DNA of 64,000 bases from Magnolia sinica (lineage: Eukaryota > Streptophyta > Magnoliopsida > Magnoliales > Magnoliaceae): assembly GCF_029962835.1 (NCBI RefSeq), contig NC_080579.1, positions 80,555,959 to 80,619,958 on the forward strand. Direction: 5' to 3'. The notes under the pieces are model-generated. The model was not told the DNA's origin and made no database searches. It saw only the letters and a program-made list of their open reading frames with translations. Positions 5,915 to 58,300 of the stretch are shown here, piece after piece (the first letter of the stretch is position 1; every line of letters begins with the position of its first letter). The translations under genes and the position numbers were made by a program.

Positions 5915-5945
5915 ACTTATTTGTCATCTAACCTGTTTATAAGAT

Positions 5946-19812: not shown

Positions 19813-22800
19813 TGTCATGCCCCAAACTCGGAAACCGGGCTCACAAAATTTTTGATCGCCGAATCCGGCACCGATGCCTCCGTAGCACCCCATTCTCGGC
19901 TCCCAGCACTCATTCGCTAGGTACCGATCCTGGGATGTTACAAGGAGGATTTTCAACATCAATTTGATTTGTAATAAGCATAATTAAAGGCATAACCAAC
20001 AAACAACAACCAAAAACTCCATCACATTTTCACTATGATAAAAAAATTTATAAGTACAATGAGCATAAAGGGAAATACAATGATAATGGACAAAAAGCTC
20101 CAAGACGATCTGCCATGCGCTCTAGCCTCAACCCTGCTGTGGTCCAACGTCACCTGCATGCAACGGTCGTGCATAAGCTTATGAAAAGCTTAGAGGGTGG
20201 TGAAAGTGTGTACGCAAGGTAGTAATATAGTTATGCAGTATCATAAATGTGGAACATGCTGATGAATCCATGAATACCATAAGTCGTACCAAGGCTATGC
20301 GAGGCAAGACATGAGTGATGTCGACCATACCAAGGCCATGCGATGTGAGATGCAACTCAAGCATACAGTTCCTCATCTGAGTCCATATATCAATACAATT
20401 TAAATCTGGAATATCACCGGGGTTTAGTACACTCCAAATCGAATTGCCGCCTCATCGCGCCCAATAAGGCGAGTGGAAGAGACCTCACTATCCGCCTACC
20501 AATATCGGGCTCGGCTCGTCGATAGCGGAACCATTCCTCGAGCTGGTCAAACTCAGCCTAGCTTTTCCCCCTCCTCTTGAATGGGTAAGGCTGCACCCCC
20601 TTCCAACCGACCATGACATAGTGGAAAGCGCGGCCGTCTGGTAATCGGTACTCAACGCTCATGCACCCACTTAGTCTAGACGTTGGAGCAACCTCCTGTA
20701 TCATAAGGTTTAAGGACTTTCACCTAGGGATATCTATAGCACCCCATGTAGAATAAGATTTTTGGTATCCAATCCTACCCACCACGATACTCCTGTGGAG
20801 GCTACAGCCCTGATGTCACTAGGGCGTACAGTAACCATGTCACATAATGTGAAATACATGGATCACACTATCCAGTCATGCAACAATCCTGCACATATCG
20901 TGCACTTATGTGGGGCATCACCGCCTATCTAGGAGCCCATAAACAAACTGCCCAAAGGCATATGATATGATCAATCACTCCTCATATCAAGCATACATAT
21001 GATGCGTATGATCATGAATCATGGAACTATTCTAAACATGTTATATATGGTGATGGACTCTGTTCACAACGAAGATAGGCCTAGACGGCCTACACACTAC
21101 AAGTATGGGCCTAACAATGGGCCCATCGGGAGAGTTATAATGCGGACATTTAACCATCATTGATCTTACAATGTGGAGTCAAACCATCATTGCTCCCAAG
21201 GCGTGACCGCCAAAAAAACATCATCACACACATCATGGTAGAATCTCACGTCACACTAGGCATCATATACGTCGCACTCAGCCCACACAATGGCCTCACA
21301 TACGTCTCATTGGGCCTCATATACATCAAATGGGCCGATCGAATGGGCCGATCAAATGGGTCGAATCAATTGGGCCAAGTCAAATGGGCCTCATGTATAT
21401 CAAATCGAGCCCAACCTTATATATTTTTGGGATCCGACCTATTCACAAGTTAACATAGAAATAGATGAAATGAAAACAAATATGAAGTAAATTGGAAACT
21501 ACTGTTGCCCTTAGAAGTTAAATGGTGGACGTCACGGTCCACTATTTAAATGGTGGGGCCCACTTGAACTTTAGATCAGACTCACCCATTTTCCCATGCT
21601 GTAAAATGACCTCAAAAATGGTTGGATGACATGGGTACAACACATGCATCATGGTGGGTCCCACCGTCCAAACAGTAGATGGTGTAAATAAAGCACATAC
21701 ATCATCAGGGTCCACACCACGTGGATGAAACATATACACCTGTAGTGGGTCCCACCGCCAGAAGAGCTTGGAATGTACACATAAATCCCATGGACCTGCA
21801 GAACTCTGGACGATTAAGAGAGAGAGAGAGAGCAGCTACGTGGCTGCTTGTAAGAGCAGCATAGTTGCTCTTACTTTTTCTTCTTCTTTTTTTCTCTTCT
21901 TAAACAAAACAGAGGTGGGTCCCATGTTGGGCCCACCACAACAACATATATATAATATATATTATATAATATAATATATCATATATATAATATAATATAA
22001 TATATAATATATATATATATAATATGATATAATATATATTATATATATCTAACATCTAGGCCTTGGACGGCTTGGACAGTGACATTCATCATGGTATTGC
22101 CCCACACGGGTAGGTGGGGCCCTCCTTGATGTATTTATCCTAATCCACTCTGTTTATCCATCCAAAACGGTGTGGCCCACCATGATTTGAAAAAGTAAGA
22201 AGCAGCTATGCTGCTCATACAAGCAGCCACGTAACTGCTCTCTCTCTCTCTCTCTTAATCGTCCAGAGTTCTTTAGGTCCATGGGATTTACGTGTACATT
22301 CCAAGCTCTTCTGGCGGTGGGACCCACTCCAGGTGTATGTGTTTCATCCACGTGGTGTGGGTCCTGATGATGTATGTGCTTTATTTACACCGTCTACTGT
22401 TTGGACGGTGGGGCCCACCATGATGCATGTGTTGTACCCATGTCGTCCAACCATTTTTGAGGTCATTTTACAGCATGGTAAAATGGGTGAGTCTGATCTA
22501 AAGTTCAAGTGGGCCCCACATTTAAATAGTAGACCGTGACATCCACTGTTTAACTTCTAAGGGCAACAGTAGTTTCCAATTTAGTTCATATTTGTTTTCA
22601 TTTCATCTATCTCTATGTTAACTTATGAATAGGTCGGATCCCAAAAATATATGAGGGTGGGCTCGATTTGATATACATGAGGCCCATTTGACTTGGCCCA
22701 TTTGACTTGGCCCAATTGATTCGACCCATTCGATCGGCCCATTTGATGTATATGAGGCCCAATGAGACGTATGTGAGGCCTTTGTGTGGGCCGAGTGCGA

Positions 22801-24258
22801 TGTATATGAGGCCGAGTGCGACGTGAGATTCTACCATGATGTGTGTGATGATGTTTTTTTGGCGGTCACACCTTGGGAGCAATGATGGTTTGACGTCCAC
22901 ATTGTAAGATCAATGATGGTTAAATGTCCACATTGTAACTCTCCCGAGGGCCCATTGTTAGGCCCATACTTGTAGTGTGTAGGCTGTCTAGGCTCATCTT
23001 CATTGTGAACAGAGTCCATCACCATATATAACATGTTTAGAATAGTTCCATGATTCATGATCATACGCATCATATGTATGCTTGATATGAGGAGTGACTG
23101 ATCATAGCATATGCCTTCAGGCAGTTTGTTTATGGGCTCCCAGATAGGTGGTGATGCCCCACATAAGCGCACGATACGCGCAAGATTGCTACATGACTGG
23201 ATAGTGTAATCCATGCATTTCGCATTATGTGACATGGTTACTATACGCCCTAGTGACATCAGGGCCGTAACCTCCATAGGAGTATCGTGGTTGGCAGGAT
23301 TGAATATTGAAAATCTTATTCTACATGGGGTGCTATAGATATCCCTAGGTGAAAGTCCTTAAACCCTTATGGTACCAGGAGGTTGCTTCAATGTCTAGAC
23401 TGAGTGGGTGCATGAGCATCGAGTACCGATTACCAGACAGTCACGCTTTCCAATGTGTCGTGGTCAGTAGGAAGGGGGTGCAGCCTTACCCGCCTGAGAG
23501 GAGGGGGCAAAGCTAAGCTAAGTTTGACCAGCTCGAGGAATGGGTCCGCTATCGATGAGTCGAGCCTACTATTGGCAGGCGGATAGTGAGGTTTCTTCCA
23601 CTCACCTTATTGCGCGTGATGGGGAGACAATTTGGTTTGGAGTGTACTAGACCTCGATGATATTCCAGATTTAAACTGTATTGACATATGGACTCAGATG
23701 AGGAATTGTATGCTTAAGTTACATCTCGCATTGCATGGCCTTGGTATGGCCGACATCACTCATGTCTTGCGTCGCATAGCATTGGTACAGCTTATGGTAT
23801 TCATGTATTCATCAGCGTGTTCTGCATTACTCTGATACTACATAACTATATTACTACCTTACGCACACACTTTCACCACCCTCTAAGCTTTCCATAAGCT
23901 TATGCACGACTGTTGTGTGTAGGTGACGTTGGACCGCAACAGTGTTGAGGCTAGAGCGCGTGGCAGATCGTCCTAGAGCTTTTTGTCCATTATCATATGT
24001 ATTTCCCTTTCAGTAATGTATTCAAATGTTTATATTAGTGGATATGTGATGATGATGTTGTCCTTGTAATTTGGGTAAATTTGTGGTTATGCTTATTATG
24101 AGACAAATGTATAAAAAAAATCCTCCTTATAGGATCCCAGGATCGGAATCTAGTGTATGGACGTTGGAAGTCGAGAATGGGGTACTACGGAGGCTGTCGG
24201 CACCGGATTTGGGGATCGGGATTCTGGTGAATCTGATTTTCGGGTTTTAGGCGTGACA
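19813..24258. mobile_element. 4.45 kb palindromic insertion of two head-to-head LTR arms
   Basis: Starts TGTCATGCCCC and ends GGCGTGACA, flanked by exact GCCAA at 19,808-19,812 and 24,259-24,263. The left arm (about 19,813-21,885) and right arm (about 22,185-24,258) are inverted copies, very similar near the centre and more diverged near 24,000-24,110. Each arm matches the right half of the solo LTR at 620-4654. The 300-bp centre is an AT-rich, itself palindromic tract. There is no coding capacity. The single target duplication suggests it arrived as one unit. Confidence 0.75.
21885..22185. repeat. AT-rich palindromic centre
   Basis: Spacer between the two arms. 21,944-22,050 is almost pure A/T with repeated ATATAT/TATAAT units and can fold on itself. 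The remainder is a short GC-richer piece with GTGGGGCCCTCC. Confidence 0.8.
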
Positions 24259-34883: not shown

Positions 34884-35080
34884 TATAATATTCTTTATTA
34901 TATTTACCGCTCCTCACACTACAACAAAAACGTGCTTACTCGGCACTCTGGGTGCATCATTCAGCGGTGCTATGTAAAACGGTGCCCATGCATTTCACTG
35001 GATATATAATAATAATTAAAAAAAACCCTACTCCCTCATTTCGTTCCCAACTCCTGACTCTCTCCTCGTACCGGCCCCGA

Positions 35081-35082
<2 letters not shown>

Positions 35083-35117
<35 letters not shown>
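35083..35117. repeat. (TC)n microsatellite
   Basis: Nearly pure TC run in the putative 5' leader ahead of the MAP70 fragment. Confidence 0.9.
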
Positions 35118-35244
35118 GTTTTCTAGGGTTTTGATCTTTCATGAACATATGGAAACCAGATCGGATCTTTGATGGTGGATTTAGTGCAGACGCCATGACT
35201 CCATCTCCTCGCCATCCCATCCTCCTCATGCGACGCATTCCGGC

Positions 35245-35389
35245 CGTCGATTCTGCTGCCGTCTGATTCCTTCAAGGGCCGCAGGAAGGGTTCCTCAATC
35301 GCACATGCACGTTGATGATCTTATCAACCTCCTCCATGGCTCCGACCCCGTCAGGGTTGAGCTCAACCGCCTCGAGAATGAGGTCCGAG
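35245..35389 (+). pseudogene. Captured MAP70 exon-1 fragment
   Basis: Encodes HVDDLINLLHGSDPVRVELN followed by RLENEVR, the hallmark start of the conserved part of plant MICROTUBULE-ASSOCIATED PROTEIN 70. A donor-like CGAG|GTCAGG follows at 35,389, where the family has an exon border. The preceding SFKGRRKGSS piece is in another frame, so the fragment carries at least one frame change. It sits nearest the left CACTA terminus behind a CT-rich leader, the right place to supply the 5' end of a chimeric transcript. Family recognition is from memory of the motif. Confidence 0.8.
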
Positions 35390-36276
35390 GTCAGGATTTC
35401 CTCATCTTCTGTTACATCTTGGCTGTGGATTCATCGGTTTTTTGCTTGATTTTGCTGGGTTTTAGGGGTTTAGGGCTTGATTGGGGCAGGTTTAGGGTCT
35501 TTGAGGTGTTTTGGATGTGTCAGTGCACGGCCGCCCAACTTCCATTGGAAAGCCGCTACCATCATAAGAGGCCGCCCGTCCCTCATCATCAACAACCAAA
35601 CACATCTCCACCTACAATCGTCCACCATCAGTTCTGATTGGTAGGGATTTTTTTATTATTATTAGGGTTTTGATTATGGATTTTTGTTTTGAGTTTTCTG
35701 ATGGATCGGCATTTAGGTCAGGCTTTCGATTAGGGTTTTTTTGTTTTGGGACTTATTATTAGGGCTTTTTCAGTGTTTTTATTATTAGAGCCCTCACAGC
35801 TGATACCATCGCAGACAAGGTGAAGGAGATGATGAGCCACTATTTTGTTTGGGTTTTTCTAGTAGTTCTTTTTTTTTTTTTTTTTTGGTTTCAATTTATA
35901 ATGACTATAGAACTTAGCAGTTAACCATCTATATGGTATGAAGCCATTGCAAACTCCTCGACTTTTGTTTATCATGCATGATTCATTGCTCATTTGGATC
36001 TATGTTCAATCATTGATTCAAGCTCTGTTATTATTGAGGCTTTTTTTTTTCCAAACTTGTCCATATTTTGTATTCCCATGTGATTGCTTAAATTGCAAGT
36101 CATTTTGTTTTCTACATTTCTTGCTTATATTTGGAGCAGTACTTTTCCAGTGCTATTTAAGGAGAGATTATATGTCATGTTTCTGTTTAGTGCATTTCTT
36201 GGTGCTTGTTTGATTTCTTGAATGTGTGCAATAATATTTGTGTCAGTTGACCTCTTTGTTGTTGCTATGTAATAAG

Positions 36277-36738
36277 GCTCTATTACATTTCCTTGATCCA
36301 GAGAAATTCAAGAATAAAGATGATTTTGTTGAAAAATACAAGAATCTAAGCTCCTTTAATGACATTGAGGTTTTATCACTTACCTTGCACTCTCAGTTCC
36401 ATGTGGTATATTCTGTTTCCATATGTAGTTGAAGTTTACTGGGTTTTTCTTTAGCTTGCTAATCTTCACAAGGAATTGAGGCCTCACATTCTTCGAAGAG
36501 TTATCAAGGATGTGGAGAAGTCTTTGCCTCCAAAAATTGAGCACATCCTCCGGGTTGAAATGTCTCCCCTTCAGAAACAGTAAGCACACTGCCCTTAACT
36601 TGTAAGGGACTACTTAAAGTACTTAGTATGTTTGCTAACTTGGAGTGTGTCTGTTTATGGTTGCATCCTTCCATGTATTACAAGTGGATTTTAGAATGTA
36701 ACTTTCACAACCTGAACAAAGGAGTCCGCAGAAATCAA
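36277..36738 (+). pseudogene. Captured CHD1/CHR5-type chromatin remodeller exons
   Basis: Three exons of the SNF2 helicase region with introns retained: 36,277-36,369 (ALLHFLDPEKFKNKDDFVEK then YKNLSSFNDIE), 36,455-36,578 ([20 protein letters not shown], then [20 protein letters not shown]) and 36,675-36,738 (YYKWILECNFHNLNKGVR). Acceptors TAAG|GC and TTTAG|CTT and donors GAG|GTTTT and CA|GTAAGC look usable. The acceptor before the third exon reads CCAT instead of an AG. The parent protein is over 1,500 residues, so only a small piece is present. It matches the CHD1-like plant remodeller CHR5. Confidence 0.85.
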
Positions 36739-38322
36739 GTTTGCACCTATTTCAAATATTTAGGGCCCATTTGTCATTGAAGAAATGAGCACTTGTGATC
36801 CTTAAAAATCACTTATTAAGCACTAAATATGTTTGAGTTAATACTTAATTTGTTGCTTAATAAGCAATTTCCCCAGTAATCGCAGGTTTCTGAAATGTCC
36901 AGGGGGTCATTTCCCAACTTAATAAGCAATTGAGTACTTCTCATTTAACTGTTCATATGTTGGCCACCAATTGGAGGTCATAGTCATCCTTTAATTTTCT
37001 TTTCATTCATTCATTCATTCATTCTTCTTTTTCTTTTTCTTTTTTCTTTTTGGTTATGAGCTATGACTCATCTATAGTGTGAACCATTGTTTTAAAAAGT
37101 TGAAATAGATGTACAAATGTGCCAACTGTAGAGTCAGTAGGACCTGTTGAGAAAATTTTCAAGAAAATGAAGAGTGGTGATTAGACAATTCTGACTGTGA
37201 AAACAATTCCCTGTAGGAAATTTTTTCTTTCATGTATGTTTAAAAAACAATTTCCTTTTGTTGGCATAAGCATTTCTCAATAACATCTTAGAAGAAGCAA
37301 AAGACTTACTAAATCACTGGACGTTGTCACCCATCTAAGAAGAAGCAAAAGGCTTATCTGAATCACTGACTGCTGTTGTCAACGACATAATGGTCTGCTA
37401 ATGAATGGGTGAACAAATTGGCAAAAGATGGGGCCTTGTTGCAAATTGGCTTTTTTTTTTCCCCCTAATAATATTCACCCATTCATAAACAAAAATCTAG
37501 AGAACTGTTTATCATTAATCAATTCTCATTCTGCACGCCCTCGGGGCAATGCAAAGGAGCCCTGTTACAAGGGTTGCAGGAAACTCACTCTCTTCTGTTA
37601 TATGGAGAATATGAATAGGAGACTTGTATGTGGGTCCATTGTAGGAAGATAGCCTTGGAGAAATTCTAATCACCAAATTTCACAAGCATGCTAATTTAGT
37701 AGTGCCATTCATTCATGAATCCAACTCATTCACTGGTTAGCACTCACCATTGTATGGTTGTTAGCTCAAAATCACATGGCCTGATGTTGCCTTAAATAAG
37801 TATACTGGTTTTGTTGAATTTTCTTCTTCTTCCTTTTTTTTTTCTCCCTTTGAGCAGTCTTAGCACATTAGTGAAAAACTCAGGAACTTTTGATTGAGGG
37901 AAACCTGAAAACAATCTAAAGGGCCTCTTGCTTATTTGAGAAATTTGTTGTTGTTTCTGATTTTTCTGGAACACTATAATCTCCAAGATCAATTCATGGG
38001 GTTATTCTACCATAAATTTCTTTGCTCCAATGAGCCGCTATGCTAGTTCTGACAAATGGTGAAAGCCTTGCATAATGTTGGAATTGAGGTATGGTAGATC
38101 TTCCATTGTTTTAGGCAGTTTGCTTTTCCTCTTAAGGATAGTTTCTGATCAGCAGTCTGTTTGACATTGATTTTATTTGTAATTCATGACTTCTCAATAA
38201 GTAGCTTGTGATTTTTGGGTTAAAGCATATTAAGATAGTTTTCATATGTGAATGGCATCTATCCTATGTAATATTCTCCTTTTAACAAAGCTTGGCAATG
38301 GGTCGGGCCTAGGCCAACAAAA

Positions 38323-38670
38323 TCAAATTTTCAAAATCAAAATCCAGGCCAACCTTCGACTATCATGAAGCAATATAATCTTGTGCATTACGATTCCTCT
38401 TTCATTACAACTGTGGCCAACATCAAACAACATTGATCTTCGGTCATGCACATGCATAATCAGGGACACTGTCAGACAAACTCGACTTTCTGCATTAACT
38501 TTGTATTGAAGCATGTTGAATATCTTTTTACACACCCATATGTGCATTTTCATGGTTTGATAGCTCCACCCATTTGTTAGCTGTGCATTTACAAACATTT
38601 TGAAAACAGAGCAATGATCACATTCATCAGGCAAATGAACTTCCACATTTGGATGAAACCATTGGATCAT
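38323..38670 (-). other. Unidentified open frame inside the CACTA
   Basis: A 115-codon minus-strand frame containing FHPNVEVHLPDECDHCSVFK and ending in hydrophobic sequence. I do not recognise it. It could be another captured fragment or chance; it is the only sizeable minus-strand candidate in the element. Confidence 0.25.
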
Positions 38671-39414
38671 ATAATTTTTTTTTTTTTTTTTTTTAATGCC
38701 AGATCCATACCATGATGTGCATTAGCACCCCACTAATTTGCTTAAGCATCAGAACCAAGAATTGAGATTCACTCTTCCAAAAGGGAGAGAATCTCTCTTA
38801 AGAATAGAAAAAAAAGAAGAAGCCTAATTCTATGTTCGACTATTATCAAAGGAGGCTCTACAAGCATGTATAAGTATGGAAAAATCCCAACTATCCATAC
38901 AATCTAATTGTAGTCATTAAAAAAATTCACCTAAGCAGTCCCTCACATTTTTCTACTTTTGCATAAAATAAAAATAAGACCTAACCAAATTCTAAACAAA
39001 TTAGAAGGCCAGTTAAAAACCTCAAAACTATAATCCCATTGTATTCTTGTACCCACCATACTTTGGCAACAACTTCCTAGAATCATGGAGGGATCACATT
39101 ATCAAGGAATCATTTTAATGCTAACTCAAAATGCTTTCAAATGGGACTTTTTTTTTTTTTTTTTTTGAAGTCCTCAGCCGGACATCGTTTCACACCCAAA
39201 AGAATTATGATGCCCCACTGAACACAACTTTTTTTTGCTTGGCCAAGAAACTATATGGGTGGGGCCCTTATGGTGACCTAGAAAGTTCATTTGTTGGGCC
39301 CATCATTGACAGATGATGCTTTGGAAGTCTAATTAGTGACATGGAAATGGTGGTTTAGCCAATGGTTCACATTCAGTGACAAAAAAAAAAAGAAACTATC
39401 TAGCATATGATAGT

Positions 39415-39415
<1 letters not shown>

Positions 39416-39445
<30 letters not shown>
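39416..39445. repeat. Poly-T tract
   Basis: Thirty consecutive T residues. Shorter T runs are near 38,678 and 39,148. They could mark retroposed insertions on the minus strand, but no SINE or LINE body was recognised. Confidence 0.9.
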
Positions 39446-39446
<1 letters not shown>

Positions 39447-40147
39447 ATGGATGAGATATTTGGGATATGCTCATTCAAGATGAGTCACATTTGATGAACC
39501 TCTTGGATTGTAGGAAGATCAATCTGCCTGTATTGTTGCTTGTCAAACAAATGTTGTTTAGTCTAGTCAAACATTGTATAGTTCACGTTCTTCTCTTTAC
39601 CTCCCTACGAGATGCCTTGTACTAGGCTTGGTTTATATTATTAGCTTCCATCCTCTAGCATGTATTCATCAATCTCAATTAGTTTCTACTAGGTGATATT
39701 GTTTGTGCTTCCCGGATTTGAATTTACATGGGGGGCAAGTAAGGATGTCATCAAAGCCTCCTACTTTGTGATCCCAATAGAGAAGGTTGATACTTTGGAA
39801 AGTGATATTCTGATAGAAGAGTATTGAAATTCAGTTCAGCTTAGCAATGTTCAGTTAAATTTTGTAGCTATGGGAGTAATTAGCCAGATAAAACCTCGTG
39901 GGAAATTGATTATTTCCACTCAAATCACTTGAAACCTCAAGGGAAACATATGCTTTCAGCTCAAATCATGAGCAGCGCTGTTTCATGGATGGAGTCACAA
40001 CTCCATCCATGATTTCAGGTGAAAATGCTCCTTTTCTTTTTCAAGATACTTGCGCTACTCAAGCTGCCATTTTTCTTCCTAAAACATGCTTCTGCTTAAA
40101 TCATGAGAGGCTATTTCTAGTAGGATTAAGCTACTTTATCTGTCTAC

Positions 40148-40386
40148 AGATGGTCTTCTAAATGGAGAAATCCCAGAGTTTGCTGGGAATATAACCTCAC
40201 TTGTGGGTCTTGAATTGAAATTCAATGTGAATACAAGAGGTAGCATTCCAAGAGCCATAACTAAGCTAATCAATTTAGAGAGGTTGTCATTGTATGGATA
40301 CCATATACATGCAGCCATTCCTAATTGGTTAAATGAACTCAAAAATCTTAAAGAACTTGTTCTGTACGATTGCATGCTGACATACC
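40148..40386 (+). pseudogene. Captured LRR receptor fragment
   Basis: Encodes about three extracellular-type leucine-rich repeats: GEIPEFAGNITSLVGLELKF, GSIPRAITKLINLERLSLYG, IPNWLNELKNLKELVLYDC. The IP-x-W/L-x-x-L-x-N-L spacing is that of LRR receptor-like proteins or kinases. It begins after an acceptor-like CTACAG. It is unrelated to the NLR LRRs nearby. The exact parent is unknown. Confidence 0.7.
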
Positions 40387-41298
40387 AAATATTTAGACCA
40401 TTAATTGTGATTTATTGTTGTTTTCTTAATTGCGATTGTATTGAAGTACTATTTCATTGCAGATATCATGCTGACAAGGTTTTTCTTCTCCATGTGTTTG
40501 GTTTTTCAGGATAGGTAGGTTGAAACATTTGAGAAGAGGTACAAGAGTTTGTATGTTGTGGGTTTCTCATTTGAGTTTGAACAAGGTTGTATTTTAAATA
40601 GATACAAGAGTTTTATGAAATTGTAAGAATTACAACCAAGTGCAGTATGGCCATGTAATGATGGATGTTGTTTCTTTATTGCAGGCCCCTGTTTACATGT
40701 TACCACATTCACGCACATGTTTGATGATAGCAAAAGGGGTGGGTAGTTCAATTGCAAGAAGAGAATCATTGCATGTCAGTTGCTTCCATTTGTACAACTT
40801 CTCTCTATTTTTTGTTCTAACAAAGAATCCATGTTTACCTCCATTTGTACAACTCTTCTCGTCTTTTCTTTTTTCCTTTTTTATTTTCTTTTTCTTTGGT
40901 AATTTACCTTGACTGTTTTTTCTGATAATCTTGTAATTTGAGAATTTAGAACAGCTAGAAGCCTTTCAAAAGTCAAAATCAGAAAAGGCTTTGGAGGGAA
41001 AGGAAGTGTAAGTAATAGAAGCATTGATTAGACATTGTGTTTTTTGTCATTCTCTGTTTGCACTGTCTTGATAAGTAGAACTTTTGAAAAGATCCCCTGA
41101 CACATAATTGTTGACAGTTCATCCTTATATGTATATTTTTATTTTTGTTATCAAGTACCTTATAATTTTGTTATATGCTTGCACAGGTGATTATCCTACA
41201 AATGTTAATAAGCTCTGTTTTATAGTTCTGTTATTTGAATCACCATTCCCATTTTCTGTGAAAGTGATTAATGCTTATCTATTACATTTATTTCTTAG

Positions 41299-41521
41299 AT
41301 TGGATTGGCGATGTCTCCATTGAGCAACAACTCCTTGTTTCTGGAATATAGTTTTGCTGCACAGGTTTATTTGATTTCAATTCCTGCTTTTTTGTCCAAA
41401 CATCCAAGGTCAGGTCACTTAAAGAGTGATATGTTTTCAGGTATGGAAGCTCACTGCTTGTGATCTCTGTGAGATAGCAAGAAATTCAGCTCATCAATCT
41501 GGATTTTCCCATGCAGCAAAG
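41299..41521 (+). pseudogene. Captured AMP deaminase exons
   Basis: Two exons with consensus borders: 41,299-41,374 (IGLAMSPLSNNSLFLEYSFA then AQ, after TCTTAG, before GTTTAT) and 41,441-41,521 ([20 protein letters not shown] then GFSHAAK, after TTTCAG, before GTGTGA). These match the C-terminal catalytic region of plant AMP deaminase (FAC1 family). In the family the first piece continues through a 35-40 residue segment with HRNPFPMFFLRG before reaching EYSIAAQVWKL. Here the two are fused at LEYS, so that segment is missing. Confidence 0.85.
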
Positions 41522-42235
41522 GTGTGAAATCTCAAAAAATGTTTACTTTTTTGCTTTCTTTTGATTGATTTTTAGTTTCTTTTAATCATGTTCTTACTTT
41601 TTGGTTGTTAAGCTATTAGCGGCTCTTACTTTTTTGGTTGGAGAGCATTCTGATTACAGTATATTCGCATCCAACATGACTGTTCATTTTCTGAAATCTC
41701 AAAAAATGTTTACTTCTTTGCTTTCTTTTGGTTGGATTGATGGCTATATTTCCCAAAAATCAAGGAATTGTTACTGATTTCCACTGTTTTACTACTAATG
41801 ACCTCCATCCATTTCATCTAAAACTTTTAGAAATTTAGTTAATTAAGTCTTCCTTTTTTGTATGGACTTTAGTAAGCTGAATTTGCAGTTAGTATGGTTT
41901 GCTAAACAAGAACTTTAAAAAAAAAAAAAAGAAAAAGAAAAAGAAAAGTGGAAACTAATCCCATTTGCTTGGAAACAAATTGTGGCTGCAATCATTGTAA
42001 TAGTACAGGTATTGTTGTCTCTTACTACCAAGCAAATTGTTAATTCTAATGTTTTGTTTCTCAATTCAAGTGCTTCAAATGTGAGGAAATCGCTTCTTTA
42101 AATCTGAAGCATTTTCAATGTGGATTTATATCTTATATAATTTTTTTCTTGGACCAACAGATTGTCAATATTTCTCTTTTATGCACAATTTAAGTCTGGA
42201 ATTCATCTGCTGACCTATTCATATATGCTTGTTCA

Positions 42236-42300
42236 GGACATACGCATGTGGCTGAGGCACTAAAAGTACCACTTCACATATTCTTTACTATGCCTTGGAC
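42236..42300 (+). pseudogene. Captured sterol glucosyltransferase exon
   Basis: One exon between TTCAG and GTAAGT. In the natural frame it reads HTHVAEALKVPLHIFFTMPW then T, matching the plant sterol 3-beta-glucosyltransferase (UGT80) family, whose members read AHVAEALKIPLHIFFTMPWT. Borders and phase look intact. It is a single exon out of many. Confidence 0.8.
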
Positions 42301-42708
42301 GTAAGTCTTGTTGTTTGAGTAGAAATCCAATACTCTTAAAATTATCAGAGGCACCACCTTATCATTATATTGTTCATTTGTCACTACCTAGGTATTTCTT
42401 ATCTATTAAATTGATCACACCCCTTACAGGGTTGGAACATTAAAAAAAGATGCTATTAAATGCACGCAGACTGTTAGATGCATACATTCATGAATGCTTA
42501 TATACCCTAATGTGTACATGCATACTTAGGAAAATTTACTCGTTTCAAATCTTGTAGCTCCCTATTGGAATTAACCCCAATGAGGCAATATACAATTGTC
42601 TATCATGTGTTGATAGACCCAATAGCTGTTATAGGGTGTGAAATCATATACCATGATGCATTTTGAAGTAGAACTGGTGATTGCTACCTTAATTTTCATA
42701 TATGAGAG

Positions 42709-43412
42709 TTGCTAATATCTCCTTCAATGCATGTTGAGGTTGCTCTGAGAGATCTTATACTCTCAGATTATGCCAAGAAGAATAATATAAACACCTCGGC
42801 ACTGACACAGTCTGAAATTCATGATATAATACTGGGGGCTGAGATAACTCCACCTTCACAACATAGGCAACAGATTACGGAGATTGAGAAGCAGGTGATG
42901 TGTTTAATAAAAGCTAGCAAGCTGAGAAGCTTCTTTGCCGGTTTCACTTGGCTAATAATCTTTAGCAAATCTTCATGTGCAGGCGAAAGAAGCAAGCCAA
43001 CTTATAGTAGTCACAATAAGGACAGCAATTGTGCATGGCGATGAACTCATTGTCACCACAACAAGCCCCTATGAGCAAGCAACATTTAGTTCTAAAACTG
43101 ATTGGCGTGTGTAAGCAATTTCAGCGACGAATCTATATCTTGGAGTCAATCATATTTATGTAAACAATGAGGACATTAAGGTAAATAATTATGACTATTT
43201 TCCATTGTATGCACTTTTTAACTTTAAAGGTTCTGGAAACTGAACTTATGCGAGTAATTCATGATTACAGGAGACAGGCTACACATACATCATGCCCAAG
43301 AACATTTTGAAGAAGTTTATTTGCATAGCAGATCTTCGGATTCAAATTGCAGGATATTTGTATGGCATAAGCCTCCCCAGATAACCCTCAAGTGAAGGAA
43401 ATCCGCTGTATT
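42709..43412 (+). pseudogene. Captured PRP8 C-terminal exons
   Basis: Three exons of the spliceosomal PRP8 gene: 42,709-42,894 ([38 protein letters not shown]), 42,983-43,180 ([42 protein letters not shown]) and 43,271-43,412 ([32 protein letters not shown]). Borders CAG|GTG, GCAG|GCG, AAG|GTAAA and ACAG|GAG are conserved. There is a stop just after TDWRV, and a one-base frame change near 43,376 (AGCCTCCCC). It covers the start of the JAB1/MPN-like region only. It lies next to the right CACTA terminus. Confidence 0.88.
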
Positions 43413-43649
43413 AGTTATTAATTAACAATATTAATTTTTAGCCAACTCATCAAATTGAAGATATGTATTGTAATAAATATATATATTTTTTTATTGTCTA
43501 GTAATATAAATTTTGTTTAATATTTAGTTTTATTTGTATGGCATCATTTTTATGTTTCAAATATTTTCAAAATATAGGTTTCGATTGAATTATATATAAT
43601 AATAAAAAAATTACTGGCATGCTAGGGCCTACCAAATCTATACAAAAGC

Positions 43650-43920
43650 TTTAGTGGCGCTTGTGTAGAAACTTTGACGGCGCTTTTTCTTAAGAAAAAA
43701 TGTTCAGAAACCACTTCTACCGGCGCTCGGAGCAACTTTTAGCAGCGCTTATTTGCGTCGGGAAAAACTACAATTATTGGCGCTCATACAGGTGCCAATA
43801 AAACTCACCTAGTGTCGACAATACTTTTCCCGACATACTCATTTATCGGTGCTTGGTTAGGGCAAGTATTGAAATTACCGGCGCTTTTAGGGGATTTTAG
43901 CGGCGCTTTCGAGCACCGGT
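43650..43920. repeat. CACTA right subterminal GGCGCT repeats
   Basis: Repeated CGGCGCTT/TGGCGCTT-type motifs in both orientations (for example GACGGCGCTTTTTC, TACCGGCGCTC, TTACCGGCGCTTTTAG, TTTAGCGGCGCTTTC). Such subterminal arrays bind the CACTA-encoded DNA-binding protein in characterised elements. Confidence 0.8.
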
Positions 43921-44082
43921 TAAACTCCCAATGGTTGCAGTGTCATTCTAAGCCACGCGAAACTATAGGATGCATCTCGAATGAAAATGTGCATGTCGAG
44001 TGATAAAAGACTGAATTCTAACACACGGCGACTGAAGGTAGGATCCAACTGAAGAGTGGCCAGGATGTTGTGCATTGGGAAG

Positions 44083-46730: not shown

Positions 46731-48050
46731 TCTAACCTATGGGTCGTGGTTGTGATGCAATCTACGAGCAGAAAATCAAAACCATGATACATATAACATG
46801 ACATACATAGATATCAAATATCTCATGTACTCACCAAGTTAGTGCAAGTCACATCATAGTCGTGCAAATGATATTTGTATCGTAGCATAGGCCCAGGTGG
46901 TTGTAATGCGGTAAGGGTTGTGGTTGTCATGAGTTATGGGTCATGGTTGTTATGTTATATGTCTCGTGGTTGTCATGGATTGTAGTTATCATGTTAAATG
47001 GGTCGTGGTTGTGTTGTTATATGGGTCGCGGTTGTAATGGATCACGACCCATCAAAGTTAGTACATGACATATGTAGATATCGAATATCTTATGTATATA
47101 TGGGTCGTAGTTGTCATGTTATATGGGTCGTGGTTGTGATGCAATCTGGGAGCAGGAAATTAGAACCACGACCCATATAACATGACATACGTAGACATCG
47201 TTTATCCCATGTACTCGTGGATATGACGAACAATGGGTCGTGGTTGTCATCCAAAATGGATCGTGGTTAGATAACACCGCTCAGTACCATGACGAACAAT
47301 GGGTCGTGGTTGTCAGATGGATACATCGTGCATATGATATATGTATCATATGACAAGTCATGGGAGTGCAGTACCATGATATATGTGCCATCTGGACGCT
47401 ATAACAGTCAAATGAATCAATGCTATAGAGGGAGGCTGATTGACTGTGCACACAGATATTCCTTTACCCCTTGTTGTACAAAGCTACTAGGGCCCACAGA
47501 TATGCCCATAGCAAATCCAATCCATCTGGATGACAACCACGATCCATTATGCATGTAAACCATGAACCATTGTATGGGTCATGGTTTTACAACATGAAGG
47601 CTCGTGGTTGTCACTATCAATGGTCGAGGTTTGATTTCTTGAAGGGTGGACCATGCATTGAGGCTAGTACGAAGGGTCGTGGTTATGAAGCACAAATGGT
47701 CCCGGTTGTCATGGACAATGGGGCGTGGTTCAAATGCACAATGGATCATGGTTTTCATGCACATGGGTCGTGGTTATGATGAGCAATGGATCGTTGTTAT
47801 ATCCTGCGTGGAACGTGGTTGCCAACCACGATCCATGTACCATGACAACCACGACTCATGTAACATGATAACCACGACCCACATCAACTGACAACCATGA
47901 CCCGTGTAACATAAAACCATGACCCATATAACATGACAACCATGATCCGTAATAGCCTTCAAGCCATGATCCATATATCGTCACAACCACAACTCATGTA
48001 ACCGAACAACCACGATACAAGATTATGAGCCAAACGAGTTAGGCCTTGCA
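46731..48050. repeat. 23-bp GTCGTGGTT minisatellite, left block
   Basis: Degenerate copies of GTCGTGGTTGTCATGTTATA(TGG), direct from 46,735 to about 47,820, then reversed (AACCACGACCCATATAACAT) to about 48,010. Spacers of unrelated sequence interrupt it (47,310-47,560). No gene; the short open frames here are translations of the repeat. Confidence 0.85.
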
Positions 48051-48059
48051 TAGGGCAGT

Positions 48060-51000
48060 ACACGGCATGAATTATGGACGGCTCGGTACTTATGTTTTTT
48101 ATCCATGCCGTCCATAATCCATGCCGCCCATCCTTTTTGCCATGTCATTTTAGGGGTAAGGCATCTATGCCGTCCATAATCCATGCCGTGTCATTTTAGG
48201 AGTAAGGCATCCACGCCGTCCATAATCTATGCTATGCATACTTTTTGTCGTGTCATTTTAGGGGTAAGGCCGATTATCAGCCGACAAGGTGGATAAAAGT
48301 GGATACTGCTTAAATCAGGACTTTTTAGGCCCACAGCGAGCTAGCCGATAGGGTGGATGGATCAAATCACCCCATTGTGGGCCTTAAGTTATGATACCAA
48401 TGGTTTGGTAGAAAAGGAAGTGAACACATTGAAGACAACAACCACGATCCATGCAACATGACAACCACAATCCATATAATATGGTAACTACAACCCATAT
48501 AACATGACAATCACGACCCATATAACATGACAACTACGAACTATGCAACATGGCAACCATGACCCATGCAAACCACGACCCATATAACATGAAAATCTTA
48601 ACCCCTATAACATTAAAATAACGATCCATGACAACTGCAATCCATATAACATGACAACCACGACCAATATAACACAGTCACTACCAGAAGAGAAGCTCAG
48701 TGAGGCACAAGACACTGCAAGTTTCTTCCACTTAAGTAAAAATGGGGATATTATCATCCTCCTCACTCTCATCATCACTGGTGAATAACTACGACCCTTC
48801 CCTTCAGACTCAGTTCATCCCTTCGGAATTAGTGCCACATGTTAATAACTACGATCCATGACAACCACGACCCATTTAACATGACAATCACGACCCATAT
48901 AACATGACAACCACAACCATAATTACAACATAATACAAAGTATATTTTTCTTTGACGGGCACCCAGGGAGTTGAAAAACTCCATTGAGAATGTCTTATTT
49001 TAACCCGATCAAAAACTCCGTTGAGAAGGTCAGGCTTAAACAAGTCATTCTCAACAGAGTTTTTCAGCTTGCTAGGTGCCATTGAAGAGAACTGTTCTTC
49101 CTATTGTATTGTAATTTTAGTCGTGGTTGTCATGTTGTATGGGTCGTGGTTGTTACGTTATATGGGTCTTGCATGTTATGTTATGTAGGTCGTGGTTGTC
49201 ATGTAATATAGGTCGTGGTTATTACGTTATATGGGTCATGTCGTCGAAGAGAACTGTTCTTCAACAAAGTTTTTCAGCTCGCTGATTGCTCATTGAAATT
49301 GTCGAGTTGCCAGAGTTTGAAAATTGTCTTCAGAATTTCATGTGGAGGCCGTTAAGCTTCAGGAAGATCGTCAACATCCCTGAGGAAAGAGAAGGGATCA
49401 CCAATAAAGGAAGAATACGAGAGGGACTCGATGGCTTTTTCGATTATCTCCCCCATTATTTTGATTGAAAGAGCAAAGAAATGCATGAATGCTTAAGTTG
49501 TTGCAATAAGAATTCTGGTTCGGATTGACTTGTGGAAGTAATTTGAAATCCAAGTACCACTTTTATAAGTTGGTCAACCAATGGTCAAGGTGCTGATTCC
49601 GAAGGGTTGCACTAATTCCCAATAGATTACGGGAAAGTAACGATATTAATGACATTTTTTAAAAAAGAATGTGGCGCTGATTCTGAAGAGTCGCGCTGAA
49701 TCCGAAAGGAATGATCATGGATATGACGAACAATGGGTCATGATTGTCATCCACAATGGATCGTGGATAGGAACTATGACCCAGTGTGTATGACAACAAT
49801 GACCCTGTCATGTGATTGTCGTTCACATGGACATTGGATCGTGGTTTTCATCCATGTTAGATCGTGGTTATCATCCAACGCTGGATCGTGGATCCAGGAA
49901 AAACGGAATGGCAACCAAGACCCATATAACACGAGAACCACGACCCATATAACATGAGAATCGTTCATCTATTTTTTGTAGATCATTTTAAGGCTTGACC
50001 TAGCTAAGCTGCACTCTCACTACTTTGGTCAGAATACCATTCATCTATTTTTTACAGATTGTTTTAGGTCTTGATCCCAAAAATGAGACAGATATAAATC
50101 TAAGGTGGAATACACCATAGGAAATCAACTGACAACCACGACCCATATAACATGACAACCACGACCCATATAACATAATAACCATGTCCCATGAAAACTA
50201 CGACCCATATAACATAACAAACATGACTCCATTGGAAACAACGACCCATATAATGTTACAACCACGACCCATATAACATGACAACCAAGACCATAATTAC
50301 AATACAATATGAAAAATAGCTCTCTTCAATGGGCACCCGACGAGCTGAAAACCTCTATTAAGAAGGTCCATATAACATGGGTTATGGTTCTCATGTATTA
50401 TGGGTCATGGTTGCAATTCTATTTTTCCCCGATCCACGATCCAACGTTGGATGATAACCGTGATCCAACGTGGATAAAAACCATGATCCAATGTGCATGT
50501 GAACGATGATCACACGACAGGGTCATTGTTGTCATACATACTGGGTGGTGGTTCCTAATCATGATCCATTATGGATGACAACCACAACCCATTGTTCATC
50601 ATATCCAGCGCGACCCTTCGGAATCAGCACCATATTCTTTTTCAGAAAATCGCATTAATATCGCTACTTTTTCGAAATCCCTTGGGAATCAACACGACCC
50701 TTCGGATTCAACGTGACTCTTTGAAATCAGCGTGACCCTTCGGAATCACCGCCTTAACCATTGGTTGACCAACCCACAAAAGTGGTACTTGGGTTTCATT
50801 TCACGAACCAGAATCTTTATTGCAACACCTTAAGCATTCATGGATTTCTTTGCTCTTTCCATCAAAATAAGAGAGGATATATTCGAAGAAGTCATCGAGT
50901 CCCTCTTGCGTTCTTCATTTATTAGTGATCTACAACCATTCACTTCAGATTCAACGAGACCCAGGAAGCTGAAAAACTCTATTAAGAATTTCGATGGAGT

Positions 51001-52275
51001 CGCTGACCCATATTAGATGACAACCACGACCCATATAACGTAACAACTACGACCCATATAACATGACAACCACGACCTATATAACATAACAACCACGACC
51101 TATATAACGTAACCACCACGACCTATATAACATGACAACTATGACCAAAATTACAATACAATAGGAAGAACAGTTCTTTTCAATGGGCACCCAGCGAGCT
51201 GAAAAACTCTGTTGAGAATGTCTTGTTTAAGCCTGACCTTCTCAACGAAGTTTTTGATCAAGCTAAAATAAGACATTTTCAATAGAGTTTTTCAGCTCGC
51301 TTGGTGCCCGTTGAAGAGAACTGTTCTTCCTATTGTATTGTAATATTGGTCGTGGTTCGCATATTATATGGGTCGTGGTTGTCATGTTAAATGAGTCGTG
51401 GTTGTCATGTTAAATCAGTCGTGGTTTTCATTGATCATAGTTATTAACATGTGATGCCGATGCCCAACGGTCGCGCTAAATTTGAAGGGAAGGGTCGTGG
51501 ATATGACCAAAAATGGGTCGTGGTTGTCATATTATATGGGTCGTGGTTGTCATGTTAAATAGTTCATGGTTGTCATGGATCGTAGTTATTAACATGGGTT
51601 GTGGTTCGCATGTGAAATGGGTCGTGGTTTTCATGGATCGTAGTTATTATCATGGGTTGTGGTTCACATGTGAAATGGGTCGTGGTTGTCATGGATCGTA
51701 GTTATTAGCATGGGTCGTGGTTTGCATGTGAAATCAGTTGTGGTTGTCATGTTAAATGGGTCGTGGTTATCATGGATCGTATAGTTATTATTATGGGTTG
51801 TAGTTCGTATGTGAAATGGGTCGTGGTTGTCATGTTATATGGGTCGTAGCCCTAAAATGACACGGCAAAGGATGGGCGGCATGGATTATACACATACTTC
51901 AATGTGGGCCCATATGGGCCGTGGTTCTCATGTTATGTGGGTCGCGGTTATTATATGTTCACTTCCTTTACTACTAAATGATAAGATAGCCATTGGTACA
52001 ATAACCTAAGGCCAACAATGGGGAGATCCGTTTCGTCCACCTTGTCAGCCAGCTCGGCGTGGGCCCAAAAAGTCTTTTTTGTGCAATGTCCAATTCTAAC
52101 AAACATTACAGTGAGCCTGGAAAGTTTCAATAGTGGCTTCCATTGTCGTGATTTTTTTCTATTATGTGACCCACACGAGCTCTAGATTAGGCTGATATTT
52201 GGGCCATAGCCCTAAAACGATGCGGCGAAAAGGATAGGCAGCATGGATTATACACATATATCAATGTGGGCCCCA
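48060..52275. mobile_element. Fold-back (long inverted repeat) minisatellite element
   Basis: An inverted repeat centred near 50,170. Mirror pairs: 48,060-48,250 with 52,190-52,275; 48,290-48,430 with 51,960-52,080; reversed 23-mers 48,430-48,900 with direct 23-mers 51,350-51,960; 48,950-49,085 with 51,175-51,330; 49,100-49,245 with 51,000-51,160; 49,250-49,720 with 50,590-50,990; 49,735-49,890 with 50,430-50,600. Arms are about 1.9 kb. No coding capacity. Long terminal inverted repeats built from short tandem repeats are the architecture of Foldback-type elements; that assignment is inference. Confidence 0.7.
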
Positions 52276-54685: not shown

Positions 54686-55376
54686 TTTGTGGTGTGGTCG
54701 AGATGATCTTTAGATGTGATTGATTTTTTGGATTATGCTCTAAAATAACCTCTAAAAGTATATAAACGGTGTAGATATAATAAATACATCGAGGAGCGTC
54801 GGCGCTCGTCTTCGCACGACACGTACCTACAGCCGCTATATAGCTGGTGTGTGGTACACCAGCCAATCCGCGTCCCTTGTGCGTGTGAGCTGCATGTACG
54901 GTGATCTGACCATTTCATAATTAGCTCACCTATCAGCGTTTTGCTCCATAGGGACAAATTTCGTTCCGTAAGAGATTTTCAAAACTTGAGGTTTTTCTCA
55001 TGATATTATTGAAAAATTTAGAAGAAAATAAAAATCTTTTAAAATATTTAAGTAAATCTAAAATTTAAATACATGTTTCTATAATAATTTTCTTAATGTT
55101 TTAACTAATTCTTTTAGTTAATATCGTGATAAAAATGCGATATTTTAAAATATTCTGAGATTTATCGCTTATGCATTTACTGTGATATTATCACAATATT
55201 TTCAAAATCTCGTAGATATTTGTCATGCTGTTTTGCTTCTTTATCCTCCTTTGACATTTCTTCTTCGGGTCATAAACAGAAACATAACATTTGGTTCTGA
55301 ATTTCCCGATGATTATCTATCATCAGAACAAACTTCTTTTTAGCTTTCTTCCTTTGACCCTCTAAATTCTTTTCTC
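54686..55376 (+). other. Upstream region of NLR2
   Basis: From about 54,820 it matches NLR3 upstream (partial MITE end, GTGAGCTGCATGTACGGTGA, ATCAGCGTTTTGCTCC) and from 55,120 also NLR1. It lacks the MITE found in the other two at about 55,230. The leader before ATG 55,377 is conserved. Confidence 0.7.
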
Positions 55377-58300
55377 ATGGCCGATGGACTTGTTCCATCG
55401 GTTCTTGGTTCCTTGAATTCCATCCTCCTATCCGAGCTAGGATCCGTGTTGTCCTGTTGCCAAGAGCTACAAGACCTTTCTAGTGCATTCAAAGCCATTC
55501 AAGCCGTTCTTCGCGATGCTGAGAGGAAACGGAGAAAGGAAGAAGCTCTGAGTGACTGGCTGGAGAAGATCAAAGATGTGGCCTACGACGTTGAAGACTT
55601 GCTGGACCAGTGCAAAGCCGAATCCCTCAGACATGACAATGAAGAGAGCAGAATCCCACCTTTTGCAAAGCGGGTATGCAACTCTGTCTTACGTACTCTT
55701 AATGTCGATGAAACAGTCGATGAACTGGGCTTTCATGTTAAATTGGGCATTGAGATGGGGCGTAGATTAAAAAATGTTAGAGAAAGGCTCAATGCTATAT
55801 GTAGAGAGAAGTCTAACTTTCATTTGGAAGAAAGCATAGATAGCAAGATGGAGATGGTGGAGAGAAAAACTAGTTCCTTGGTTGATGAAACGGAGATTAT
55901 TGGTAGGACTCCAGATAAGGAAAGGATCATACGCTGGTTGTTAAATGATATTAATCATGTCAGTAATGACATTCCCGTCATTTCTATAATTGGTTTAGGG
56001 GGAGTAGGAAAGACTGCTCTCGCTCAATTAATATATAATGACCAGCTAGTTATTGGGCACTTCTCGAAAATGATGTGGGTCCATGTTTCAGATAATTTTA
56101 ATGAGACTAAGATTTGTAATGCAATCATTGAATCGGCAGAGGGTCGACCTGCCCCTGGTTTCTCGGAATGGCAAATGGTGCAAAATCATCTACGGAAAAT
56201 CTTGATAGGGGAGCGATTTTTAGTTGTGCTTGATGACATCTGGAATGAAGATGAAGACAAGTGGAATAAATTGAGGCTTCCTTTGAAATATGGAGATATT
56301 GGAAGTAGAATTTTGATCACGACTCGCAATGAAGGCGTGGTTAAAATTATGCGCGGCACGAAAATGCATGAACTAGCGCCCCTATTAGAAAGGGATTCTT
56401 GGTCATTGTTCAGTCATATTGCTTTTGGGGAAATAAATACAGAGGAACGTGCAGAGTTGGAACAGATTGGCAAAGAAATTGCTAGAAAGTGTGACAGATT
56501 ACCTCTTATTATAAAGAGAATAGCAAATGCAGTGCGTTTCAAGAGGACGAGAAGGGAGTGGGAGCATGTGTTGGAGAGTGAAACATGGGATTTTCCAAAT
56601 GTTACAAGAGGTCTTCAATTAAGCTATGAAAATATGCCTCCTTACTTGAAGCGTTGCTTTGCCTTTTGTTCTATATATCCTAAGGATCATGTTATAGAGA
56701 GGGAGACATTAATCAAGTTGTGGATGGCCCAGGGCTTTCTTCCAGAGGAAAGTACAGCAATGGAAGGTATAGGCGATGGGTATTTTTACGAATTAATAGG
56801 GCGATCCTTGTTTGATGCTCCAATTACAGATTGCTTTGGCAATATCATGCACTGTAAGATGATGGATATTGTTCATGACTTCTTCCAAACTGTCGTGAGA
56901 GAATGCCATACCATGAACATGGAATTGTCGAACAGCATCCCCCTGCATGTGCGCCATGTCTCATTGAAATGCAGTAAAGATTTCTCATCAATTCCGGGAA
57001 GCTTGTGCAAAGCCAAGAATCTGCGCACGCTCCTGTTCATTGGGTGGTCAACAATCACTGTGCTGGCTGATGATTTTTTTGAAAATTTCAGGTGCCTCAG
57101 AGCATTAGATTTGAGTGGTACAAACTGTTCCCATATTCCCAAGTCCTTGAAGGACTTGAAACTTTTAAGATACCTCAACTTATCTACTGCTCAAGTAGAG
57201 TTGCTTCCTGAATTCATATGCGGACTGTATTCGTTGCAAACCTTGATACTTAATGCGTGCCGCCGAATCTCTATACTTCCCGAAAAGATGTGGAAACTTG
57301 CGAGGCTTAGACATCTGGAAATTGAAAGTACCTCGCAATTGCAGGCTTTACCCCATTGGATTGGGAGGTTAACTTCCCTTAGAACATTGTCAAAGTTTAT
57401 TGTTGGGGAAGGGATGGAATGCAGGATTGGGGAACTTAAAAACCTCAATCTCCTCCAAGGAAAGTTAGCGATATACCATTTGGAGAGGGTGTTAAATGAG
57501 GGTGACGCCAAGGAAGCAGAACTAATGAATAAGAAACACCTTCGCCATTTGGAATTGTATTTCATTGGCTGGGGACTGTCAGCACCATTGCTTGGAAGTT
57601 CAGTAGTGTCAGTCGGGATTAAAGTAAAGATCAATGAGGGCGTGTTGGAAGGCCTTCGGCCCCATGCAAACCTAGAAGAACTGAAAATATCGGGTTACAT
57701 GGGATTGAAGTTCCCGGGATGGATGGAAGATGCATCGTTCTCCAATCTAGTTAATGTGACTCTTCGTAACTGCCATCACTGCATAAAACTACCAGCACTT
57801 GGGACACTACCATACCTTAAATACCTTACCATAGTAGCAATGGCTAAGGTGGAATTCATCGGTCCAGAGTTCTACGGGAACAACGATAGTAGAGACGTAA
57901 CAGGTGCAGCTCCAGCATTCCCCAAGTTGGAGACACTCGTTTTGATGGGAATGGCTACTTTGAGGGAGTGGGCTGGAAGACCAGATGGAGGAATGCCGTC
58001 TCTCCTTGAACTACGTATTGCAAAATGTCCCATGTTAATGAAAGTGCCCTTATTCCGTCATGGTAAACTGTGGAAAGTGGATATTGAATTACCAAGCACC
58101 TACTGGACATCGTGCATTTCAGAATCTGTCGAGTGTTTGGTTGTAGACGACATCAGAGGCAGCCATCATGTGTTAATCAGAAACAACGTAGACGGCATCA
58201 GAGGCAACCATGTGTTAATCGGAAACAACGTAGACGGCATCAGAGGCAACCATGTGTTCATCAGAGACAGCGATGCGCTCCACATCAAAGACATCGATAT

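Follow-up and report, generated by a model that had tools for sequence, protein, structure and literature searches.

How do fragments of several unrelated genes come to lie side by side on one strand between the ends of a single transposon, and has a useful gene been made of them? This question is raised by a locus of Magnolia sinica (NCBI RefSeq assembly GCF_029962835.1, contig NC_080579.1), which was analysed as a window of 64,000 nucleotides (positions 80,555,959 to 80,619,958 of the forward strand). Positions 34917-43942 of this window form a complete non-autonomous CACTA element of 9,026 bp, for which a preliminary description had proposed a Pack-CACTA nature and, possibly, selection for a chimeric transcript. 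The reading favoured here, with a probability of roughly 0.8, is that of a non-autonomous Pack-CACTA whose cargo was built stepwise, with a left and a right module joined, and whose pieces decay neutrally, the chimera not being kept by selection.

Ends of the element and its relatives

The following features delimit the element.

34914..34916, no strand: left target site duplication (TSD) TCA, read directly
34917..35010, + strand: left terminal inverted repeat (TIR; CACTACAAC...) and short subterminal region with CGGCAC/CGGTGC motifs, from end reading, motif bins and genome matches
43412..43942, + strand: right terminal region with an AT-rich stretch, subterminal GGCGCT repeats and the TIR (reverse complement CACTGCAAC)
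43943..43945, no strand: right TSD TCA, read directly

The left junction reads TCA and then CACTACAACAAAAACG from 34917, the right one GTTGCAGTG finishing at 43942 and then TCA. Six start-like and ten end-like sites occur in the window, and of all their pairings at a distance of 0.2-25 kb only 34917/43942 has equal 3-bp flanks. With a stricter 9-bp end pattern a pair arose in 13 of 300 first-order Markov shuffles and a TSD-matched pair in none of the 300. Compared over their first 33 nt, the two ends are identical at 20 positions. Subterminal motifs of the CGG[CT][AG]C type reach their maxima in both terminal bins, and no CGGCGC or CGGTGC motif was found in the element interior from 35517 to 43342. 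The ends, the TCA duplication, the subterminal repeats and the completeness of the element were therefore recovered exactly as first proposed, coordinates included, with the correction that the right TIR of this copy reads CACTG.

For the genome searches the 1.84-Gb Magnolia sinica assembly was used, and 20 relatives of the left end were fetched, 10 kb each. The left end (query 34917-35217) has at least 56 genome matches (40 of 102 candidates scored) and the right end at least 41 (40 of 690 candidates scored); with that many candidates and matches the right end is very common. The search for siblings with the same termini, suggested as a check in the preliminary description, yielded four complete relatives, each having two ends and a TSD of its own, namely L009 (TTT, 7,627 bp), L014 (AGA, 7,583 bp), L013 (AGT, 7,919 bp) and L012 (AGG, 9,591 bp). 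All four have part or most of their cargo in common with the element studied here and retain the left CACTACAAC; their right ends read CACTA in three cases and CATTA in one. For the other 16 of the 20 relatives no paired right end with a matching TSD was in view within the fetched 10-kb stretches.

The element thus shows the marks of a Pack-CACTA: TIRs starting with CACT[A/G], a 3-bp TSD here and in the relatives, subterminal repeats in the motif bins, and captured host DNA including introns, as seen when the CHD1-type and PRP8 donor loci described below are aligned. It also lacks a transposase of its own, as no transposase domain family was detected by Pfam in its six frames at E<=1. At gathering scores nothing in the window matched Rfam.

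Captured gene fragments

Between the ends lie pieces of seven unrelated donors, all on the plus strand.

35262..35389, + strand: MAP70 first-exon fragment with a donor splice site at 35390 (Pfam)
35828..37563, + strand: CHD1-type capture block, exons about 36277-36369, 36455-36579 and 36676-36741 plus introns (Pfam, PDB, donor locus)
37988..38088, + strand: isoamylase fragment, first part by PDB search, second part, in another frame, by eye
39618..40831, + strand: LRR-holding block, absent at one common junction from L009, L013 and L014
40113..40391, + strand: LRR receptor-like fragment, best PDB match MIK2
40950..41007, + strand: exon 4 of the gene model LOC131251525, donor gene unassigned (spliced-protein alignment)
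41299..41521, + strand: AMP deaminase fragment, exons 41299-41364 and 41441-41521 plus intron, internal part lost
42237..42300, + strand: UGT80 sterol glucosyltransferase exon, both splice borders present
42701..43411, + strand: PRP8 capture block, exons about 42733-42894, 42983-43180 and 43271-43411 (PDB, donor locus)

The open reading frame of MAP70 matched at 1.8e-8 in Pfam, and by eye its frame seems to be interrupted before the conserved LLHGSDPVRVELNRLENEVR. The SNF2/CHD1 piece, for which we take CHR5 to be the plant gene name, gave 1.1e-6 in Pfam and 5.7e-10 for CHD1 in PDB; the right limit of its block may lie as far as 37714. The isoamylase piece (PDB 1.6e-5 for the isolated stretch) consists of 22 residues followed, after a frame break, by 11 residues in another frame. 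The PDB match of the LRR piece to MIK2 is 1.2e-19 for the whole frame, the best stretch including weak sequence left of the LRR, and Pfam LRR_14 (3.8e-5) stays below its cut-off. AMP deaminase was found by Pfam (3.1e-8) and PDB (1.3e-7), the Pfam matches covering profile positions 494-515 and 549-584 only, which marks the internal gap. With the UGT80 exon 652 of 664 candidate proteins matched at E<=0.001, and many among the 120 listed are named sterol 3-beta-glucosyltransferase. The PRP8 piece matched PDB chains of that name at 2.9e-32 and, at 1.6e-35, a chain whose name gives the MPN domain only; judged from the translation, it contains an in-exon stop and a frameshift. DUF809 (0.0018) and Fn3_ELFN (0.009) also gave sense rows, which we regarded as chance and kept outside the donor count. 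A search for a further donor with one reading frame of about 40625-41029 (not the frame of the gene model) found none among 928 candidates at E<=0.001.

At least six donors had been claimed, and MAP70, the CHD1-type remodeller, LRR, AMP deaminase and PRP8 were borne out by Pfam and/or PDB and UGT80 by the protein search; the isoamylase piece had been overlooked and raises the count to seven. That all fragments share one strand also holds, since only plus frames matched and the three minus-strand frames contained no Pfam family at E<=1 and no PDB match at E<=0.1. Introns are present as described, while the statement that splice borders are mostly intact has to be supplemented by the coding lesions of several pieces.

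Donor loci and capture junctions

The CHD1 piece was found at 15 places in the genome (15 of 15 candidates), one of which, L031 on the same chromosome, is the donor. It matches the element only over 35828-37563, with 95.1% and 93.5% identity, and has further CHD1-type exons on both sides of the captured stretch (by eye) and SNF2-domain matches upstream of it; at L036 upstream CHD1-type exons are likewise present. For PRP8, with at least 43 genome matches (40 of 49 candidates), the donor locus is L038, which is 94.8% identical over exactly 42701-43411 and encodes, within a single frame, PRP8 domain IV (5.5e-120) and, downstream of it, the JAB/MPN domain. The CHD1-type and PRP8 pieces are captured genomic DNA with introns kept, 93-95% identical to their donors. 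Distances from this copy to donor and relatives are similar, with 3.7% to the donor and 2.3-4.8% to the relatives for CHD1 (35829-36900), and 4.9% and 3.5-6.8%, respectively, for PRP8. Relatives are continuous across the junctions 35828, 42701 and 43411, and because these junctions are common to them, each of the two pieces was probably captured once and then amplified.

The AMP deaminase piece has 27 genome matches from 26 candidates and the UGT80 piece 13 genome places. Ten AMP deaminase copies start matching at 41319 (query position 30) and others stop near 41372, so this piece may itself be composite.

Cargo of the relatives

Among the 20 relatives MAP70 occurs in ten, seven of which also contain CHD1 and isoamylase; PRP8 is found in four, AMP deaminase in three (and in part in L017), UGT80 in two and LRR in one. 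All pieces of the element's cargo located in these relatives are in sense orientation. The UGT80 block is absent from L014, where a 20-nt stretch stands in its place, and a like stretch is present in the PRP8 carrier L040. The block is therefore probably a later arrival, the 20-nt stretch being more likely the older sequence into which it came.

Further cargo was looked for in parts of six loci (L010, L012, L016, L017, L041 and L043). The middle of L012 differs and contains ORC6-like (2.4e-5) and HRDC-like (0.0011) pieces, both sense and both below the Pfam cut-offs, with none antisense. L016 has an antisense protein-kinase piece (1.1e-5, above its cut-off; reverse complement 4065-4322) within an insertion of 1,732 bp between element positions 38109 and 38110, where the sequence of L012 also changes, with the same first bases as the insertion, and additionally a sense Transposase_32 match. 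Apart from these, the middle of L010 gave a chance-level row only (0.088), L017 only AMP deaminase, and L043 only a chance-level antisense row (0.079). In L041 a sense GH1 fragment (5.6e-21, reverse complement about 1372-1545) lies about 4 kb left of PRP8, with the element limits out of view, and an antisense DUF3915 row (0.0069) was noted.

Two side observations concern the size and interior of relatives. A candidate 24.7-kb element at L010 (G000:C17:45211008-45235660) has its left end at 45235660 and a same-strand right end at 45211008, which is the best right-end match after this element's own. In L011 an internal array of about 300-bp repeats extends over reverse complement about 2100-9950, and one unit of it also occurs in L010.

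The multi-gene cargo calls to mind Helitrons, the class known for such cargo, so that a Helitron, or several Pack-MULEs, might have been caught inside or between CACTA ends. A Helitron-end scan gave one match on the plus strand (0.3 expected from 20 shuffles) and none on the minus strand; it is a Helitron-like hairpin with a CTAG end at 43813, which lies within CACTA subterminal repeats continuing on both sides of it. Nested candidates with TIR and TSD numbered one in the element as compared to a mean of 2.2 in five shuffles, and much of the same cargo is found between CACTA ends with 3-bp TSDs at other loci. Taken together, this makes such a capture hardly credible. As to the element itself, Helitrons end in a hairpin with CTRR and have neither TIRs nor a TSD, both of which are present here, and the Mutator TIRs with 8-11 bp TSD of a Pack-MULE do not agree with the 3-bp TSD and CACTA ends. 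Poly(T)/poly(A) tracts, considered as tails of retro-insertions, were without a repeated 10-mer flank. The view of a single element rather than a nest of separate ones is upheld by the lack of an excess of nested TSDs and by the relatives which hold the cargo between other TSDs.

Modules and proposed assembly

The distribution of the pieces points to a modular cargo. In the relatives L015 and L027, which carry MAP70 only, the match ends at 35829/35835, adjoining the CHD1 boundary at 35828. PRP8 was listed at 40 places, one of them the donor, and 24 PRP8 pieces are directly followed by a right end on the same strand; CHD1 and PRP8 lie within 12 kb of each other at five of the places listed. The module of PRP8 and right end is thus commoner than that of MAP70, CHD1 and isoamylase, and the present element holds both. 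Wherever two of the listed pieces, of six kinds in all, lie within 12 kb of each other, they are on the same strand. One pair of a left end and UGT80 on C11 is in the wrong order and hence not one element. This count comprised 32 of the 56 left-end matches, namely the ones which start at one of the first five query bases, together with 26 of 27 AMP deaminase, 40 of 43 PRP8 and 40 of 41 right-end matches. The remainder either belonged, as a second piece, to a place already listed or lacked the end.

Stepwise capture and hybrid formation fit the pairing of PRP8 with the right end, the rare pairing with CHD1 and the stop of L015 and L027 at the CHD1 boundary. A CACTA transposase encoded at another locus would presumably mobilise the element in trans. 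Its cargo would have been assembled stepwise from genomic DNA, as documented for CHD1 and PRP8. It seems that two modules have spread, each on its own: a left one made up of the left end and MAP70, to which CHD1 and isoamylase were then added, and a right one made up of PRP8 and the right end. Elements of the present class would unite both, with the AMP deaminase, UGT80 and LRR blocks in between. The joining most likely occurred by remobilisation of neighbouring elements of the same orientation, by which the gene pieces would stay co-oriented. Growth of Pack-TYPE elements by remobilised neighbouring insertions, and local insertions often in one orientation, have been reported (PMC8903248, PMC13317346). 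The captured pieces decay neutrally. Through their leftover splice sites a chimeric mRNA is read by gene-prediction software, and possibly by the spliceosome as well, but its product is not preserved by selection.

Several points weigh against this scheme. No internal TIR or subterminal scars were found at the supposed module joints. The left ends of the PRP8 carriers L041-L043 lie outside the view, so that the modules are judged to be separate from the fact that no left module is present within about 5-6 kb. The supply of transposase in trans is presumed, and native loci were pinned down for the CHD1-type and PRP8 pieces and not for MAP70, isoamylase, LRR, AMP deaminase and UGT80. In addition, mobility may have been lost in this copy because its right TIR reads CACTG.

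The annotated chimeric gene

A public gene entry covers most of the element.

35305..43310, + strand: NCBI gene model LOC131251525, 8 exons, 216 aa, stop codon TGA at 43308-43310

The LOC131251525 protein equals the spliced element at 216 of 216 residues, with eight exons (35305-35389, 36302-36369, 36455-36579, 40950-41007, 41299-41364, 41441-41521, 42983-43110 and 43271-43307, then TGA) and seven GT-AG introns. The chimeric gene exists as an annotation, and the chimeric transcript is a predicted one. As deduced from the native frame, it would use a cryptic acceptor within CHD1 and a donor at 43110 overlapping the PRP8 stop. The model passes over UGT80, isoamylase, LRR and exon one of PRP8, and the frame of its last exon is not the native one.

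That these exons form a young gene under selection, useful as protein or RNA, would accord with the perfect match of the model and its seven GT-AG introns, with the retention of its 14 splice dinucleotides (all 14 in L009 and L014, 13 in L013) and with a TATA-like TATATAATAATA at 35003 and an AATAAA at 43472, which frame the model. The relatives point the other way. At the position of the start ATG eight of them (L009-L014, L016 and L017) have GTG and L015 has GTA, so that the start is absent from nine of the ten relatives checked, the alignment of the tenth, L027, being ambiguous; an ATG private to this copy could also be read as a recent gain. The three relatives which hold all eight exons are L009, L013 and L014, and of these L013 has a stop and L014 a frameshift; the partial relative L016 has two stops. 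In seven relatives exons diverge from this copy by 2.7-5.4% and introns by 3.0-4.5%, i.e., alike. Differences summed over these seven amount to 28 synonymous and 80 non-synonymous ones, a sum in which each relative is compared to the same copy, so that the values are not independent, and from which gapped exons are omitted. Five upstream ATGs precede the start, and the non-native last frame and the skipped pieces likewise speak against a selected product. A frame held open by selection across the copies, the mark of a functional gene, was thus not seen in the start, stop, frameshift and divergence data. A selected gene is accordingly very unlikely, and the suggested selection for a chimeric product is not supported. 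LOC131251525 is a public gene entry that is transposon payload, and as such a warning for gene annotation.

A public protein, P0168 (191 aa), joins a MAP70 start to sequence which its record names SWI/SNF-related; Pfam recognised MAP70 only. It perhaps stems from an independent Pack element or from a faulty model.

Orientation of the cargo

All seven donors of this element are in sense orientation, for which a two-sided sign test, done by hand, gives 2/128 = 0.016. Family-wide, with ORC6 and HRDC of L012 in sense and the kinase of L016 in antisense orientation, nine of ten are sense (0.021, also by hand); the GH1 piece of L041 stayed outside this count because its element limits were unseen. 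The preliminary description had put the probability of a common strand at about 1 in 32 for random captures. The common strand is real, but this figure presupposes captures independent of one another, whereas the cargo moved in modules, with blocks travelling together, so that the figure has to be taken with caution. The family-wide sense bias is only suggestive, because some identifications are weak, because the blocks are possibly dependent on one another and because a striking case was picked in the first place.

Two explanations may be considered. A few blocks may have happened to be sense and then been copied together. Blocks do travel together and their copies are not independent, the kinase piece of L016 is antisense, and the case was selected for its look; against this stand the seven of seven donors in sense orientation and the ORC6- and HRDC-like pieces of L012, which are also sense, though below their cut-offs. 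Chance followed by inheritance has on balance slightly less than an even chance of being right. The other explanation, a doubtful one, is that this CACTA lineage captures directionally, independent captures ending up sense relative to the left end, either because elements would grow only by same-orientation joining or because selection would act against cargo that brings in poly(A) or splice signals in antisense orientation. If true, directional capture would make each element a transcribable, spliceable exon array. With two donors and their capture boundaries mapped, such a rule can be tested genome-wide. No recognisable treatment of a CACTA orientation rule, or of Pack-CACTA in Magnolia, appeared in the titles and abstract openings of the papers which the literature searches listed.

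Comparison with known elements

The closest known case in content is Tgm-Express1, a soybean CACTA element of 5.7 kb with five unrelated host gene fragments (PMC1947982), which has CACTA ends and several unrelated donors with introns in common with the Magnolia element. Its fragments are reported to be spliced as cassette exons of one transcript (PMC1947982), from which one orientation can be deduced. Tgm-Express1 resides in an intron of F3H and is transcribed from the F3H promoter, whereas the Magnolia element lies between NLR open reading frames; the latter is larger (9 kb, seven donors) and comes with a family of relatives and two located donor genes. Pack-CACTA and other Pack-TYPE elements of Arabidopsis, rice and maize (PMC8903248) are likewise non-autonomous with CACTA TIRs and captured coding DNA, several loci per element, and growth by remobilised neighbouring insertions was proposed for them as well; in the different host Magnolia the left and right modules and common capture junctions are directly visible. 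Members of the Tpn1 family of Ipomoea nil (PMC5105172) resemble the element in an interior replaced by host genes between conserved ends, and chimeric transcripts are reported for them. They have long tandem subterminal repeats of 122 and 104 bp. Stepwise multi-gene cargo is also a trait of maize Helitrons (PMC3288121), and for wheat chromosome 3B 140 CACTA capture events and 17 putative exon-shuffled genes were reported (PMC4290129).

The Magnolia element is a real, complete, neutrally decaying and modular Pack-CACTA. It belongs to a kind already known and is unusually rich, and the documentation which its own genome provides is unusually good. From one magnoliid assembly two donor genes, the capture boundaries and intermediates of a transposon assembling seven gene pieces can be recovered, by which capture order, module joining and any orientation rule become testable from sequence alone.

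Genomic surroundings

The element lies in an NLR gene cluster. At 6472-9792 and 55344-58664 there are CC-NBS-LRR (R13L1-like) open reading frames, each of 1106 aa, which are about 92% identical over 2.9 kb, and partial copies of them are also present in the window. Between these two frames, 23-bp minisatellite arrays of the ACAACCACGACCCATATAACATG type occur in both orientations at 47674-51847. A 2-kb inverted duplication (19813-21880 / 22189-24258) with a short spacer is 89% identical between its arms; each arm contains CACTACAAGTATGGGCCTAAC, and translation of the left arm in its three plus frames gave no Pfam family.

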